Below, piece after piece: positions 4,004-63,986 of a stretch of 64,000 nt of DNA (positions are counted from its first letter, which is position 1; each line of letters begins with the position of its first letter). The position numbers and the translations under genes were made by a program. The DNA is taken from positions 648,001 through 712,000 of the forward strand of contig NC_058051.1 in the NCBI RefSeq assembly GCF_020085105.1, given 5' to 3'. The notes beneath the pieces are model-generated. The model was not told where the DNA came from, ran no database searches, and worked only from the letters and a program-made list of their open reading frames with translations. Origin of the DNA: Siniperca chuatsi (taxonomy: Eukaryota > Chordata > Actinopteri > Centrarchiformes > Sinipercidae).

Positions 4004-13278
<9,275 letters not shown>

Positions 13279-43056: not shown

Positions 43057-43827
43057 TTCCATCCACCCATCATCCACCCACCCATCCACCATCCATCCAT
43101 CATCCACCCATCTATCATCCATCCACCCATCCATCTATCATCCAACCACCCATCCATCCATCCAACCACCCATCATCCACCCATCTAACCACCCATCCAT
43201 CCATCTATCATCCATCCACCCATCCATCCATCATCCACCCATCATCCACCCACCCATCCACCATCCATCCATCATCCACCCATCCATCCATCTATCATCC
43301 ATCCACCCATCCATCCATCCATCCACCCATCATCCATCCATCATCCACCCATCCATCCAACCAACCACCCATCATCCATCCATCCATCTATCATCCAACC
43401 ACCCATCATCGATCCATCATCCACCCATCCACCCATCTAACCACCCATCCATCCATCTATCATCCATCCATCTATCATCCATCCACCCATCCATCCATCA
43501 TCCACCCATCATCCATCCACCCATCCATGCAAACACCCACCCACCCATCCATCCATCATCCACCCATCCATCCAACCAACCACCCATCATCCATCCATCC
43601 ATCTATCATCCAACCACCCATCATCGATCCATCATCCACCCATCCACCCATCATCCACCCATCTAACCACCCATCCATCCATCTATCATCCAACCACCCA
43701 TCATCCATCCATCATCCACCCATTCACCCATCATCCACCCATCTAACCACCCATCCATCCATCATTCACCCATCCACCCATCATCCATCCACCCATCATC
43801 CACCCACCCCTCCACCCCCCTCTATAC
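43057..43827. repeat. (CATC)-based satellite-like array
   Basis: About 770 bp of CATC, CACC and CATCCAACC variants without a strict higher-order unit. It lies between the divergent ccdc22 and tbc1d25 genes. The open frame through it (plus 43047-43859, 270 codons of H-P-S-I-type repeats) is a by-product of the repeat. Confidence 0.97.
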
Positions 43828-54484: not shown

Positions 54485-56337
54485 ATGTTGACCCGACTGT
54501 CGCGGCTCGGGCCCGCTTTGCCCCGGTTCCTCGCTCGTCCGCCGGCCCGGTTCGTCTCCCAGTCCAAGCCGAGCGGGGCCGCTGGTGCGACCGCCGTGAC
54601 GGAGCTGCACCCCGCCGCCGTCACGGCCGGACACGGCGAGGTCAGCCAGTACGTCAAGGTGAGTCACAGACAGCTGGCTAACGTTAGCTAGCTGCAGCTG
54701 CGTTCACAAACACACACTAAACATTTACTGACGGATTCTAATACAGCTGAAACACCTCCTGCTCCTGTCAGTGCTCAGTCCAGGTACAGCCGGCTGCAGG
54801 ACAGGTGTGTCTCAGCTGCAGCAGGACAGGTGTGTCTCAGCCGGCAGCAGGACAGGTGTGTCTCAGCCTGCAGCAGGACAGGTGTGTCTCAGCCGCTGCA
54901 GCAGGACAGGTGTGTCTCAGCCGGCTGCAGGACAGGTGTGTCTCAGCCGGCTGCAGGACAGGTGTGTCTCAGCTGCTGCAGGACAGGTGTGTCTCAGCTG
55001 CAGCAGGACAGGTGTGTCTCAGCAGCTGCAGCAGGACAGGTGTGTCTCAGGTGTGTCTCAGCTGCTGCTCCCTCCCTCTGAGCAGCACGGTGTGTGTTCT
55101 GTATCTGTGCAATGTCAAACATAAACACACACACGTCTTAAAATGAAATACGGGGGTTTTCCTGTCACATGGACGTTGCGGTGACTTATGTGAAATCTTC
55201 CCAAGTGACGTCTGCAGCAGGTGCAGTGACGGCCCTCTCAGGACGTCCTGACTGCTGCCTGCACCGCTGCCTGCACCGGGCAGACGCACCGCTGCCTGTC
55301 CCGGGGCAGACGCACCGCTGCCTGCACCGGGCAGACGCACCGCTGCCTGTCCCGGGGCAGACGCACCGCTGCCTGTCCCGGGGCAGACGCACCGCTGCCT
55401 GTCCCGGGGCAGACGCACCGCTGTACATAGCCCTCGTCAGGGGCTTCTGACAACAAGTGGCTGCTATTATTGATTCAGTTGGAGATTTTTTTAGGTGACT
55501 ACTTGTGCAATAATCAATTGTTTCCTTCCAACAGAGACTGGACGGGAGGTCAGCCAACGGGAGCGCGTGTCTTTGTTTGTCTGAATATGAACGTTGCTGT
55601 TTTGCCTGAAACAATCCGCCCGGTCCCGCCTCGATCCAAGGTGGCGGTCCGTACTGTGTCACGTGGCTCTCGTGCATGACTTGTCCCCCTTTGTGTTGTC
55701 AGAATCCAGATTACCATGGCTTCTCCAGTGACCCCGAGGTGGATGTGTGGAACATGAGGGTGGGCTTCTTCTTCGGCATCTCGGTCGCCCTCGTCATCGG
55801 AGGAACGTTCATCCACTATTTACCAGACCACGGGTGAGTTCTCGGTTCTGCTGTCCCGTCAAAGACGAGACGTTTTGTCTCATAGTCGCAGGACGGAGTC
55901 TCACGCTGCTGTTTGTTCTGTTTCTCGGCCTTGCAGCTGGTCGTCAGATTGTCAGTAAGCGTGCAGTGACTTTAATAAAGGATTAGGTGCCATGTGAGCA
56001 CGGGACCAGCTGACATAACAGAGACCCTGTAGGACTAGCTGGTTTGCTGGTTTGCTGGTTTGAAGTGGGCACCGATCAGGATTCAAACCTGATCCGCCCT
56101 CAGCCACACAGCCCGGATGAAGCAGAGTCGTTAGGTTTAATACGTAGTACCTGAAGATGATGTTGCTTAGTTATTCAGGATTATTTAATGTTATAGTGAA
56201 AACTTAAGATTTGCAAGTTTTCAGGGGCTTTAAGGCTGTTTTCTTTTCAGCTTTGTTGGTCTTCAGCCCCAAACCAACAACAGATTAGTCTCAGTGGAAG
56301 AATTCAGCGTTTTTAAAGTTTTGGGGTTTATTGGTAA

Positions 56338-56368
<31 letters not shown>

Positions 56369-56506
56369 CCCAGCATGCGGCAGTGGGCCAGACGGGAGGC
56401 GGAGCGTGTGATCCTGCAGAGAGAGAAGGAGGGTCTTCCTCTCATAGAGGAGAACTACTACGACCCAAACAAGCTGGCTCCGCCCACAGCTGCGGAGGAG
56501 GAGTAG
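54485..56506 (+). CDS. ndufb11: NADH dehydrogenase 1 beta subcomplex subunit 11 (ESSS)
   Basis: A supernumerary single-helix subunit of mitochondrial complex I, in the distal membrane arm. Three exons, 54485-54658, 55703-55833 and 56374-56506, join in phase to 438 nt, 145 aa. Residues 1-58 form an Arg/Ala/Pro-rich mitochondrial targeting region (R4, R7, R14, R18, R22, no acidic residue until E41). Exon 2 opens with '[19 protein letters not shown]', the family signature, followed by a hydrophobic helix '[18 protein letters not shown]'. '[17 protein letters not shown]' then gives the basic matrix or intermembrane tail typical of ESSS. The open frame extends upstream of the ATG, but the start at 54485 fits the targeting peptide. 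An AATAAA follows the stop by about 50 bp. Intron 1 carries two minisatellites. Confidence 0.95.
54785..55070. repeat. Minisatellite, 10 copies of a 21-28 bp unit
   Basis: Ten repeats of 'caggacaggtgtgtctcag' joined by variable 'ccggctg', 'ctgcag' or 'cagctgcag' linkers, in ndufb11 intron 1. The core contains AGGTGTG, a T-box half-site-like word. Confidence 0.97.
55270..55425. repeat. Minisatellite, about 6 copies of a 25-bp unit
   Basis: Repeats of 'cagacgcaccgctgcctg' alternating with 'tcccgggg' or 'caccggg' linkers, also in ndufb11 intron 1, 200 bp after the first array. Confidence 0.95.
56341..56369. repeat. (GT)n microsatellite forming an acceptor tract
   Basis: A TG run directly followed by 'tcccag', the acceptor of ndufb11 exon 3 (exon starts 56374). 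Confidence 0.97.
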
Positions 56507-56559: not shown

Positions 56560-56820
56560 TGTTCCTGTTGTGTAATTACTCTGTGTGTGGGCAGTGACTT
56601 CTTTAAGTCTCAAATAACTAACATTCACGAGGGAAATCGATGCGCAGCTACTCTCCTCGTGGAGGAGAAACGTCTGAACAGAAACATCTCCTCAGGCATC
56701 TGATCAGTGGCTCTCTAAGATGCATTAATTGAGCACTAAATTATAATTAACCACGTTATTAACTGTTCCAGCAGCAGCTCTCCTGCAGTGACACCTGATA
56801 AGTAATACACGTGTCATCTA

Positions 56821-57796
56821 CAGCGGTGTGAAAAAGTGTTTGCCTTCCTGATTTCTTATTTTTTTGCATGTTTGTCACTTAAATGTTTCAGATCATCAAA
56901 CAAATTTAAATATTAGTCAAAGATAACACAAGTAAACACAAAAGGCAGTTTTTAAATGAAGGTTGTTATTAAGGGAAAACAAAATCCAAACCTACATGGC
57001 CCTGTGTGAAAAAGTGATTGCCCCCTAAACCTAATAACTGGTTGCTCCACCCTTAGCAGCAACAACTGCAACCAAGCGTTTGCGATAACTTGCAGTGAGT
57101 CTTTTACAGCGCTGTGGAGGAGTTTCGGCCCACTCATCTTTGTAGAATTGTTGTAATTCAGCCACATTGGAGGGTTTTCGAGCATGAACTGCCTTTTTAA
57201 GGTCCTGCCACAGCATCTCAGTAGGATTCAGGTCAGGACTTTGACTAGGCCACTCCAAAGTCTTCATTTTGTTCTTCTTCAGCCATTCAGAGGTGGACTT
57301 GCTGGTGTGTTTTGGATCATTGTCCTGCTGCAGAACCCAAGTTCGCTTCAGCTTGAGGTCACGAACAGATGGCCGGACGTTCTCCTTCAGGAGTTTTTGG
57401 TAGACGGCAGAATTCATGCTTCCATTTATCACAGCAAGTCTTCCAGGTCCTGAAGCAGCAAAACAGCCATCGGGGCCTGCAGCCTTGTTTGAGTGGGGTT
57501 TCATCAGCTGTCCTCTCACCTGGTCAGCAGTCAGGCCCACAACAGAGGTTACAGGTGGGGGAGAGGGGGAGTCATTAGTGTGAAGAGGGCCGTTAGCCTG
57601 ATGGAGGGGGGCCGTGGACTCAGAGGAGCTTGAGGGCCGACAGCAGCTGAGTTAGAGGGGGGATGAGCAGGAGCCGGTGTGTCAAATCTGTTAAAGAACA
57701 GAATAAGTTCGTTTGATGATCTGAAACATTTAAGTGTGACAAACATGCAAAAAAATAAGAAATCAAGAAGGGGGCGAACACTTTTTCACACCGCTG
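56821..57796 (-). mobile_element. Tc1-family transposon remnant with a LINE-derived insert
   Basis: A 976-bp element flanked by TA on both sides (56819-56820 and 57797-57798). The ends, about 56821-56902 and 57716-57796, are inverted repeats of about 80 bp starting 'cagcggtgtgaaaaagtg'. On the minus strand, 57468-57034 encodes the C-terminal half of a Tc1 transposase: 'GCFAASGPGRL', then 'QQDNDPKHTSKSTSEWLKK' (second catalytic Asp) and 'WPSQSPDLNPTEMLW' (catalytic Glu). The N-terminal DNA-binding region and first catalytic Asp are absent. In their place, in the same frame, about 57705-57470 encodes a LINE reverse-transcriptase-type segment including 'LTADQVRGQL' and 'NKAAGPDG'. The transposase cannot be active. 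Confidence 0.9.
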
Positions 57797-58174
57797 TATA
57801 CTGACATCATGTCACCACTCCAGTCACAGGCAACCAGAAGGTCAGAAGGTGTGTGTGTACCTGAGGAAGTGTGTGTACCTGAGGAAGTGTGTGTCAGAGC
57901 CTTTTGCACAGTTTAATCATGCCACATTCAAGCACAGCTGATATAATTAGTAGTTGATGTTTAAATTGTTAAATTACTGTAAATTACATTTTAAACTAAA
58001 AACGAATCATTGTGCCATCAAATGTGCCTAAATTAATTACCTAATAAATACTTGTATTGTTTTTATTTGACTGTGGCATCGGGCGCGTTAGAAATGTCCC
58101 GCTGGCATCAACACTTGGACCCGGTGGTCATTCTTCCGCGAGTCCTTGAACGCAGCAGAGGGACGTCGTCACGG

Positions 58175-61300: not shown

Positions 61301-63986
61301 ATCGGAATAGTTGCAAATTGATTTTCTGTTCTCCCAGATGTGCGTTATAGAGCCCAGCCACATCAGGACACATCAGCATCAGCATCTGGAAATGCTGGGG
61401 CTTGTGTCAGCGGTCCGTGCTACATACTTGTCCGTCTTAAATTAAATTAAAATAAAAAAGTACCGCCCCTTTTTGAATTCAGACCAGTCTCGATATTTGC
61501 AAGTAAATTATTGTGTAATTAGCCGTCTAGCCGGCAAAATGCCATTAGCAAGAATCACTGTGGCAACCAGCTGGCAATACCCATCAACCAGCCCCAGTAC
61601 ACCTGCAGCCGACATCCTAAACATGGTAGCATCACTCAGCGCAGCTGATTCACCTCACGACTCATGGTCACGAGTGCAGCCTGGTCTTCAGGTGAACTTA
61701 AAACACCTGTTCAGCAAACCTCGACGTGCAGAAGAGGGATCTTTGTCCGCAGTCTGCCTTTCACCGTCAGGCTAATAGCTAAGTGTTTAGCCTAATTAGC
61801 CACATATCTTAAAATGAGCAAGTTCTCGTCGACTGTCTGTCTGAGACCAGCCTCACCTGCCAGGTGTGAATCCACGTCAGCAGTCGGACGTCTTTTTAAA
61901 CTTAAACACTCAGTGTTTGGATGTCAGGAATATTCTGTGTGCTGTGTGTCCTTTGTGCTGCAGCTTCGTTGTTAAAGGCAAGTTCAGTGAACCGAGTCTG
62001 CGTGTTTCTGCAGGGTCTGTCCTTACTACCTCTCCCGGTCCCTGAAGCAGCAAGCAGATGTCATCTTCATGCCGTACAACTACCTGCTGGATCCCAAGGT
62101 GAGCGGACTGCTGGGAAAGAGGAGGCGGAGCTTATCCAAGACGTTAGGAAAGAACTCAGGTGACGTCTGTTGGAAAAATAAGACCCAAACAGTCCTGAAT
62201 GGTACGCTGCCCACTCCAGGTTCCTGCTGCCGGTGTTAAAGCCGGAGGAATTGATTTCTAGTTTCTAGACTTAGATTAGCACTAGCATCTTCCCGGTGGG
62301 CAAACACGACGGTGGCTAGCTCGCCAGCTTCAATAGTTTGCCTGCTAGCCCTGTGAGTTGCCACTAGCCGCCTTTATGTAGATCTTAGAGTGCTGTCTGT
62401 CACTGATGTGCGATGATCGGTCCTCTCATTACAGAGCCGCAGGGCGCACAACATCGAGCTAAACGGAGCTGTGGTCATCTTTGATGAAGCTCACAATGTG
62501 GTAAGACTCTGTGAGGTGCATCGTTTATTTTATAGTTACAGCAAGTCTAATGTTTATCGCTCAGACAATGAGGCACAAAGGTCAGATGGTGCAGCGTTGC
62601 ATTCTCCTGAAAGGTGCGGACCCTTGAGCCTGTGCGGGACTAGACGGACGTGACCCTTCAGATGATGTGTGTGTTGTCTGCAGGAGAAGACGTGCGAAGA
62701 ATCAACATCCTTCGACCTGACTCCCTACGATGTGGCCTCGGCCATCACCGCCGTGGACAGGCTGCTGGTGGAGCAGGCGAAAGAAGTCGGCCGCGGAGAC
62801 TCGGCCGCTGAAGAGTTCAGCGTAGGATCCCTCAACTCCGGTCAGCATGTGTCTTTGTCCCGGGGATTAATGGCATTTGACTGAAATAAATCTGTCCTTT
62901 ACAGTTTGTGTACTTAAATACCAGCTGGTGATATGTTTTTGTTTCAGGTTTAAAAATGGAAATCGAAACCATCGCTAAAATTAAAAGTAAGTGTTGTGAA
63001 GGTGTGAAGAAGATAAATATCTGGATATCTAGATTGGGCCGTTCGTCGGTTCTCTGTGGGATTTGACTGTCGTTCGTGTGCTTTGACAGAGATTCTGCTG
63101 GATCTGGAAGCTGCCATCGATTCCTACGAGCTTCCAAGTGACCGAGGCATCACGAAGCCTGGAATGTACGTGGAAGCGTGGTAGGAGATTGTTTTTGATC
63201 CACTGACGGTGGTGCCAACCGCCTTTCGTTGCATCAGAGAGGGCTGGTCTATCACCTGGAATCAGTTGCCACGTTTAGCTCAGTAACGAATGAAACAGTA
63301 CGTTGTTAAACACAGCCGTGCACGAGAAGGGCCTGCCTCTTCTTTGTGCTGAACACCTGAACAGAAAGTGACGGGTTATGACGTAGAATGAAGTACGAAA
63401 GGCTGTGTTTCACATCCCCTGGCTATAAAAACAAGTTATATTGGGTCTGAAGCGAGACCAGAATGTGGTCTGGAAGCACAGGGAGACTCCCTCCCTCGGG
63501 GTTAGCTGCTCTCGCTGGAATCAGCTGCTGGTGAAAGAACAAAAACCCAGAAGAACAGTCGAAATGATTGTCAACATATTAATGGTTCTGACTTGTCTGT
63601 CTGTCCGTCTCAGCTTCATCTACGAGCTGTTAGAGAGAGCCCACCTGACCTACGACAGCAAGACGTCTGTCTATGAAGCTCTGGAGCAGATCAGCGGATA
63701 CCTGGCAGGACGTCAGTATGGATTCATTTCTTCATGTTTCTGTTTATACAGCGTGTCTCTTGGTTTAGGGGCTGTTACGTTTTCTGCTGTCCCCCATGTG
63801 AGTCTTACTTCCCTTCAAAGCTGCATGTATGAGCAGGAAGTGTATGTAAACTCGCTGTCTGCTGGCTGGATCGTACAGACCCTGCTACAAAATCAAAAAA
63901 TCAAATGAGCTGTGTGACGTTTCTCATCAGAATCAGGAATCTTCCTGAACATCGGTGGACTGCAGAAGCTGGCTGATATCATACAG
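58334..63986 (+). CDS. rtel1: Regulator of telomere elongation helicase 1 (partial, 5' part)
   Basis: An XPD-family Fe-S DNA helicase that dismantles T-loops and D-loops and guards telomeres. Thirteen exons are visible: 58334-58435, 59161-59359, 60267-60360, 60541-60622, 60733-60793, 60898-60973, 62014-62098, 62435-62500, 62684-62840, 62948-62986, 63090-63165, 63614-63711 and 63931-63986. They join without a phase error to 397 codons, and the gene runs past the window end. Motifs: Walker A 'SPTGTGKT' (K48), motif Ia 'ASRTHSQL', the four Fe-S cysteines C145, C163, C172 and C207 at the human positions as I recall them, and the Walker B box D250-E-A-H253. The ATG context is good ('acgatgg') and the N-terminus '[16 protein letters not shown]' matches the Q-motif region. 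From memory human RTEL1 has more than 1200 residues, so roughly the first third is here. Confidence 0.97.
58476..58727 (+). repeat. Interspersed repeat family B, copy 2
   Basis: The inverted partner of 15454-15713, about 250 bp, in rtel1 intron 1. No coding capacity or obvious tRNA-like head; family not identified. Confidence 0.8.
59360..60266. other. rtel1 intron 2, nothing recognised
   Basis: About 0.9 kb between exons 2 and 3. No repeat family, exon or RNA gene is evident; small open frames are not conserved-looking. Confidence 0.5.
60974..62013. other. rtel1 intron 6, nothing recognised
   Basis: About 1 kb between exons 6 and 7. It holds a short GT run near 61055 and a frame on plus 61054-61350 without a known domain. 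Confidence 0.5.

Follow-up and report, generated by a model that had tools for sequence, protein, structure and literature searches.

The 64,000-nucleotide stretch of Siniperca chuatsi DNA analysed here (contig NC_058051.1, positions 648,001 to 712,000; hereafter the window, located at C10:648001-712000 of the searched 719-Mb assembly of 65 contigs) contains a 976-bp non-autonomous Tc1 transposon with a piece of a long interspersed nuclear element (LINE) in its interior. The original prediction had described a chimera of a Tc1 element and a LINE open reading frame (ORF) 2-type segment, which is borne out by the TA flanks, a DDE_3 match, the LINE matches and a LINE copy that bears RVT_1 (L036). 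The element and its parts are as follows, with the evidence in brackets; reference positions are those of a near-full-length Tc1 copy of 1604 bp (L020, on C9).

56819 to 56820, no strand: TA target-site copy, left (read directly from the sequence)
56821 to 57796, minus strand: chimeric non-autonomous Tc1 element, 976 bp (TA flanks, inverted ends, family comparison)
56821 to 57468, minus strand: Tc1 sequence that was kept, comprising the 3' end and the half of the transposase gene that encodes the C-terminus, reference 1604-957 (genome matches, DDE_3)
57004 to 57026, no strand: inner direct repeat still present at the left (3') end (repeat detection, motif positions)
57466 to 57468, no strand: GCC overlap common to Tc1 and LINE, read on the minus strand as the Gly codon GGC (parent alignments)
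57466 to 57713, minus strand: 248 bp captured from the LINE interior, in the ORF immediately ahead of the reverse transcriptase (RT) domain (LINE-copy alignment)
57711 to 57713, no strand: GTT overlap common to LINE and Tc1 at the right junction (parent alignments)
57711 to 57796, minus strand: outer part of the Tc1 5' inverted repeat, kept without the inner direct repeat (BLAST aligns from 57704, reference 91-1)
57797 to 57798, no strand: TA target-site copy, right (read directly from the sequence)

The inverted repeats of the reference copy are approximately 210 bp long and contain a GTGTGAAAAAGTG-type repeat in outer and inner copies, the outermost 3' copy having one difference. The inverted ends of the 976-bp element extend over approximately 90 bp and are 89% identical across 103 aligned bases, which take in the TA and a few flanking bases. 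The element reads, in order, reference 1604-957, 235 bp without BLAST homology to Tc1, and reference 91-1. In the BLAST-type genome searches, in which 40 candidates were scored per query, the first 648 bases of the element have matches at 39 other places, with 95-97% identity over the full or nearly full length (40 scored of 3208 candidates), and none of these 39 matches covers the middle of the element (bases 649-883). Counted from the exact overlaps, approximately 870 of the 1604 reference bases are lost, with one break near the terminus, and the lost stretch includes the 5'-end inner direct repeat as well as much of the 5' part of the transposase gene. Nothing in the chimera corresponds to reference positions 92-956, so a complete, autonomous transposase is absent and the element is a non-autonomous derivative. 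Judged by its TA duplication, its family-specific inverted ends, the DDE_3 match and its DNA identity to the family, the chimera is classified from sequence as a Tc1-like element (DD34E Tc1/mariner).

A minus-strand ORF at 57651-57031 (206 amino acids, stop to stop) joins the LINE peptide LTADQVRGQL...NKAAGPDG to the Tc1 peptide CFAASG. The Tc1 part of this ORF matches Pfam DDE_3 with an E value of 7.8e-13 over positions 48-145 of the 146 in the profile, and what remains of the transposase is without the first third of the domain. The DNA-binding half and the first catalytic Asp presumably lay within the lost part.

The LINE origin of the middle is clear from both DNA and protein comparisons. 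Segment 57465-57710 matches all 39 other scored places at 92-94%, on 21 contigs (40 scored of 1201 candidates), and an alignment of 11 LINE copies with the window places the homology at 57466 to 57713. These 11 copies run on alike past both sides of the piece, short indels aside, and the eight longer LINE loci that were fetched have, in pairs, up to 2.7 kb in common around the piece. An ORF of L036 matches RVT_1 (E 2.1e-25, residues 262-497), with a match to the model ALKBH8_N further on, and in this ORF the captured peptide continues as ...NKAAGPDGVSPGVLKAC into the RT domain; the piece therefore corresponds, with an identical peptide motif, to the stretch just before RVT_1. The ORF of a second copy, L034, taken from the upstream part, gave no match in the Pfam search. 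The LINE may be Rex1-like. The piece is internal to the LINE and therefore is not a LINE insertion end; a simple LINE insertion as the sole event was rejected for the same reason.

These results uphold the predicted LINE source and its protein resemblance, and they widen the predicted extent of 57470-57705 by several bases on each side. The predicted reading frame stands in part. The window piece is short by 4 bp after 57603 relative to all 11 aligned LINE copies, and therefore its upstream part is out of frame and only the stretch closer to the junction shares the Tc1 frame. The in-frame join does not speak for a function: the LINE part is shifted out of frame further upstream, and the DDE_3 domain is without its first third. 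A functional fusion protein was rejected on these grounds, and the chimera by itself has no likely function.

Both junctions can be placed to the base. At the left junction, Tc1 homology stops at 57468 and LINE homology begins at 57466, which leaves an overlap of GCC; the junction therefore coincides with a Gly codon, GGC on the minus strand, that both parents share, as had been suggested. The window reads AAAACAGCCATCGG at this position. On the Tc1 side, GCC is present in all 12 copies compared, followed by CCAG in 11 and by TGAG in L011; on the LINE side, GCC-ATCGG occurs in 4 of 11 copies, with TCC in six and GCT in one. At the right junction, about half of the 11 LINE copies have AAGTTCGTT-GGCC and the rest have close variants of it, the Tc1 side reads AAATTTGTT-TGATG in L020, and the window reads AAGTTCGTTTGATG. 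The overlap here is GTT, within AA.TT.GTT, in which 7 of 9 bases are alike. Under a simple random model, the chance of an overlap of at least 3 bp at one random junction is 0.051.

The chimera appears to be single-copy in the assembly. Pattern searches covered the whole 719 Mb with up to three mismatches, the counts of repeats being lower bounds; the left-junction pattern was found once, at the window locus, as was the right-junction pattern, and the reversed control of each gave no match. A 120-bp query with approximately 60 bp from each parent has the window as its sole full-length match (217 bits versus 112 for the next, 40 of 2199 candidates scored), and the next-best matches cover the LINE side only. 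It had been proposed that the chimera could have been mobilised in trans after it formed and that, if so, a whole family of hybrid non-autonomous elements should exist. Neither expectation is supported, as no second copy with the same junctions was found by either junction pattern or by the 60+60-bp query. The alternative concern, that uniqueness might reflect a simple later insertion, is answered by the position of the TA repeats, which bound the entire Tc1 element rather than the LINE piece.

Rearrangement is not confined to this copy. Of the 39 further places matched by the Tc1 part, 19 were fetched as copies (11 of the 12 best-scoring and the 8 lowest), a non-random sample in which the class counts are not rates. 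Two are near full length (L020, L046), three carry a simple internal deletion (L016, L042, L047), one combines a deletion with a short filler that derives in part from Tc1 (L045), two are one-ended fragments (L015, L018) and one runs into N (L017). The other ten are inverted fusions of the 3' part, five with a 594/1133 junction (L009, L012, L014, L019, L043) and five with other junctions (L010, L011, L013, L044, L048); in some of them, such as L012, L013 and L014, the second arm ends before reaching a terminus. L009, L019 and L043 contain a 120-bp filler that has no match in the Tc1 reference and lies between a direct duplication of Tc1 sequence. With the L009 filler and its Tc1 edges as query, 40 of 261 candidates were scored, and all 40 places, that of L009 included, match 138 to 141 of the 141 bases at 93-100%. 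A source of the filler was not found among them, since the scored places match it together, or nearly so, with both Tc1 edges.

The 594/1133 junction is present in all four loci returned by the filler search (the place of L009 itself and L051-L053); among the other 36 matches, the check for this junction extended to L019 only. The copies with the filler are on C20 (L009), C19 (L019), C7 (L043), C18 (L051), C19 (L052) and C17 (L053), and L009 and L019 differ in both contig and the flanks beside their ends. The 594/1133 inverted-fusion derivative was mobilised. Additionally, L053 contains a second inverted duplication within the Tc1 derivative (2022-2305), which suggests that the same copy was rearranged repeatedly.

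The reading that we favour, with a probability of about 0.68, is that abortive gap repair, in which microhomology guided a template switch to a LINE copy, produced a single-copy, LINE-filled element of the kind termed Pack-TIR (TIR, terminal inverted repeat). A Tc1 element resident at the TA site, or its immediate precursor, would have suffered a double-strand gap, most likely through excision or cutting by transposase. Repair would have copied inward from both sides and been left unfinished; one end may have switched at a few matching bases onto an abundant LINE copy, of which approximately 250 bases were copied, and may then have returned to Tc1, by a further switch or by annealing, at another short match slightly inward of the 5' end. 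The loss of more than half of the element, the break near the terminus, the two 3-bp overlaps and the internal LINE piece fit abortive gap repair, and the frequent rearranged copies among the 19 fetched family members are counted in its favour. By the criterion applied in the consulted parts of Tan et al. 2021 (PMC8277862), a gap of approximately 870 bases with a break close to the terminus is what excision-induced gap repair would leave, and the large gap, together with the failure to find a donor nearby, leans in that direction. We infer the order of events, excision as their cause and their occurrence at this locus.

Several observations weigh against abortive gap repair. Both overlaps are short, at 3 bp each, and GCC is present in only 4 of the 11 fetched LINE copies, the remaining seven differing at one base of three. 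A BLAST search with the LINE piece across the 64-kb window returned no other copy, only short chance matches; the best of the LINE copies scored match at 94% and lie on other contigs or approximately 8.9 Mb away on the same contig, and therefore no donor was identified. Additionally, the portions of PMC8277862 drawn on here attribute most single-copy cases to breaks without excision and to small gaps, so that excision is put forward conditionally.

Transposition of an already-formed chimera, with the parent copy lost or outside the assembly, is unlikely. It would account for the TA on both sides and the matched outer ends, a rearranged derivative of the same Tc1 family did amplify, and no LINE template was found near the element in the window; yet each junction is found in one copy only, and the right inner direct repeat is gone, which should hinder movement if this Tc1 family needs that repeat, as we assume from Sleeping Beauty. 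The trapping by end joining of a free LINE DNA or complementary DNA fragment in a break inside Tc1 is still less probable: two short overlaps also suit microhomology-mediated end joining, but the fragment comes from the LINE interior and has no LINE end, and half of the element has been lost, which gap repair explains in one event. Least probable of all is a LINE insertion into a resident Tc1 followed by deletions that took both LINE ends and the adjoining Tc1, because, although nested insertions are common in repeat-rich genomes and a similar end product would be expected, two separate deletions are required, each of which would have to bring LINE and Tc1 together at a 3-bp overlap, and the piece begins and ends inside the LINE with no LINE end left.

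The closest known counterparts of a gap-repair product are the animal Pack-TIRs. The parts of Tan et al. 2021 (PMC8277862) consulted describe 370 of these, 115 of them TcMariner and nearly all single-copy, with a median overlap of 2 bp at breakpoints where one is present; gaps are typically small and a donor often lies close by, and most are ascribed to gap filling without transposition. The window element resembles the TcMariner cases in retaining both TIR ends and the flanking TA around a foreign interior, in its short breakpoint overlaps and in its single copy. It differs in that the filler is from a repetitive LINE, with no nearby donor found, and in that the loss is approximately 54% of the element versus a median of 4.6% in the same source. 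A Pack-TIR is expected to carry more than 100 bp of foreign sequence between the ends of one TIR element, and here this amounts to 248 bp of LINE, with short overlaps at both breakpoints (GCC and GTT). A unique parental copy is lacking, as there are 39 near-equal LINE matches (40 scored of 1201). In the portions of PMC8277862 used, a unique, unambiguous parent is a rule of the published search; the mechanism itself does not call for one. Because that survey required one (a unique top hit), it would be expected to miss the window element.

Mariner miniature inverted-repeat transposable elements of Drosophila in which one end is replaced by the inverted other end are known from the part of PMC4161770 consulted, and so the inverted fusions found here are also of a known kind. 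The likeness lies in the internal deletion and inverted end replacement seen in many relatives of the window element; the Drosophila elements are reported there without long non-homologous sequence, whereas the window element carries 248 bp of LINE and no second copy of it was found. Among the published titles searched, none named a Tc1 element with a captured LINE piece, which is weak evidence of absence. In Ac/Ds and P elements, interrupted repair after excision reportedly leaves internal deletions and ectopic filler (Rubin and Levy 1997; Nassif et al. 1994); these elements belong to superfamilies and organisms different from those of the window Tc1.

The window chimera looks like the scar of faulty DNA repair, of a kind already described in animals, and not like a new mobile family. 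It provides an example, clean at the base level, of a DNA transposon picking up part of an unrelated retrotransposon, and a single chimera beside an amplified rearranged derivative offers a natural comparison of which rearranged elements still move. More broadly, DNA transposons in this genome might often take up pieces of other transposons by faulty gap repair, with some hybrids spreading (the 594/1133 derivative with the 120-bp filler) and the window element as an unspread sibling; this proposal is tentative and on balance doubtful. If such hybrids do spread, the survey in PMC8277862, as far as its consulted parts describe it, would tend to miss the class through its demand for a unique filler parent.

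The element lies between two exons with domain matches. One, at 56234-56506 of the window, matches Pfam ESSS (E 4.1e-10) and ends 315 bp upstream of the element; we take its gene to be NDUFB11. The other, at 63429-63908, has a weak match to ARCH_RTEL1 (E 1.6e-5, below the cut-off). Elsewhere in the window, a 20-bp unit forms a long tandem array of approximately 88 copies at 5973-7758, and approximately 760 bp of TCCA-type repeat at 43058-43817 result in long, spurious-looking ORFs.
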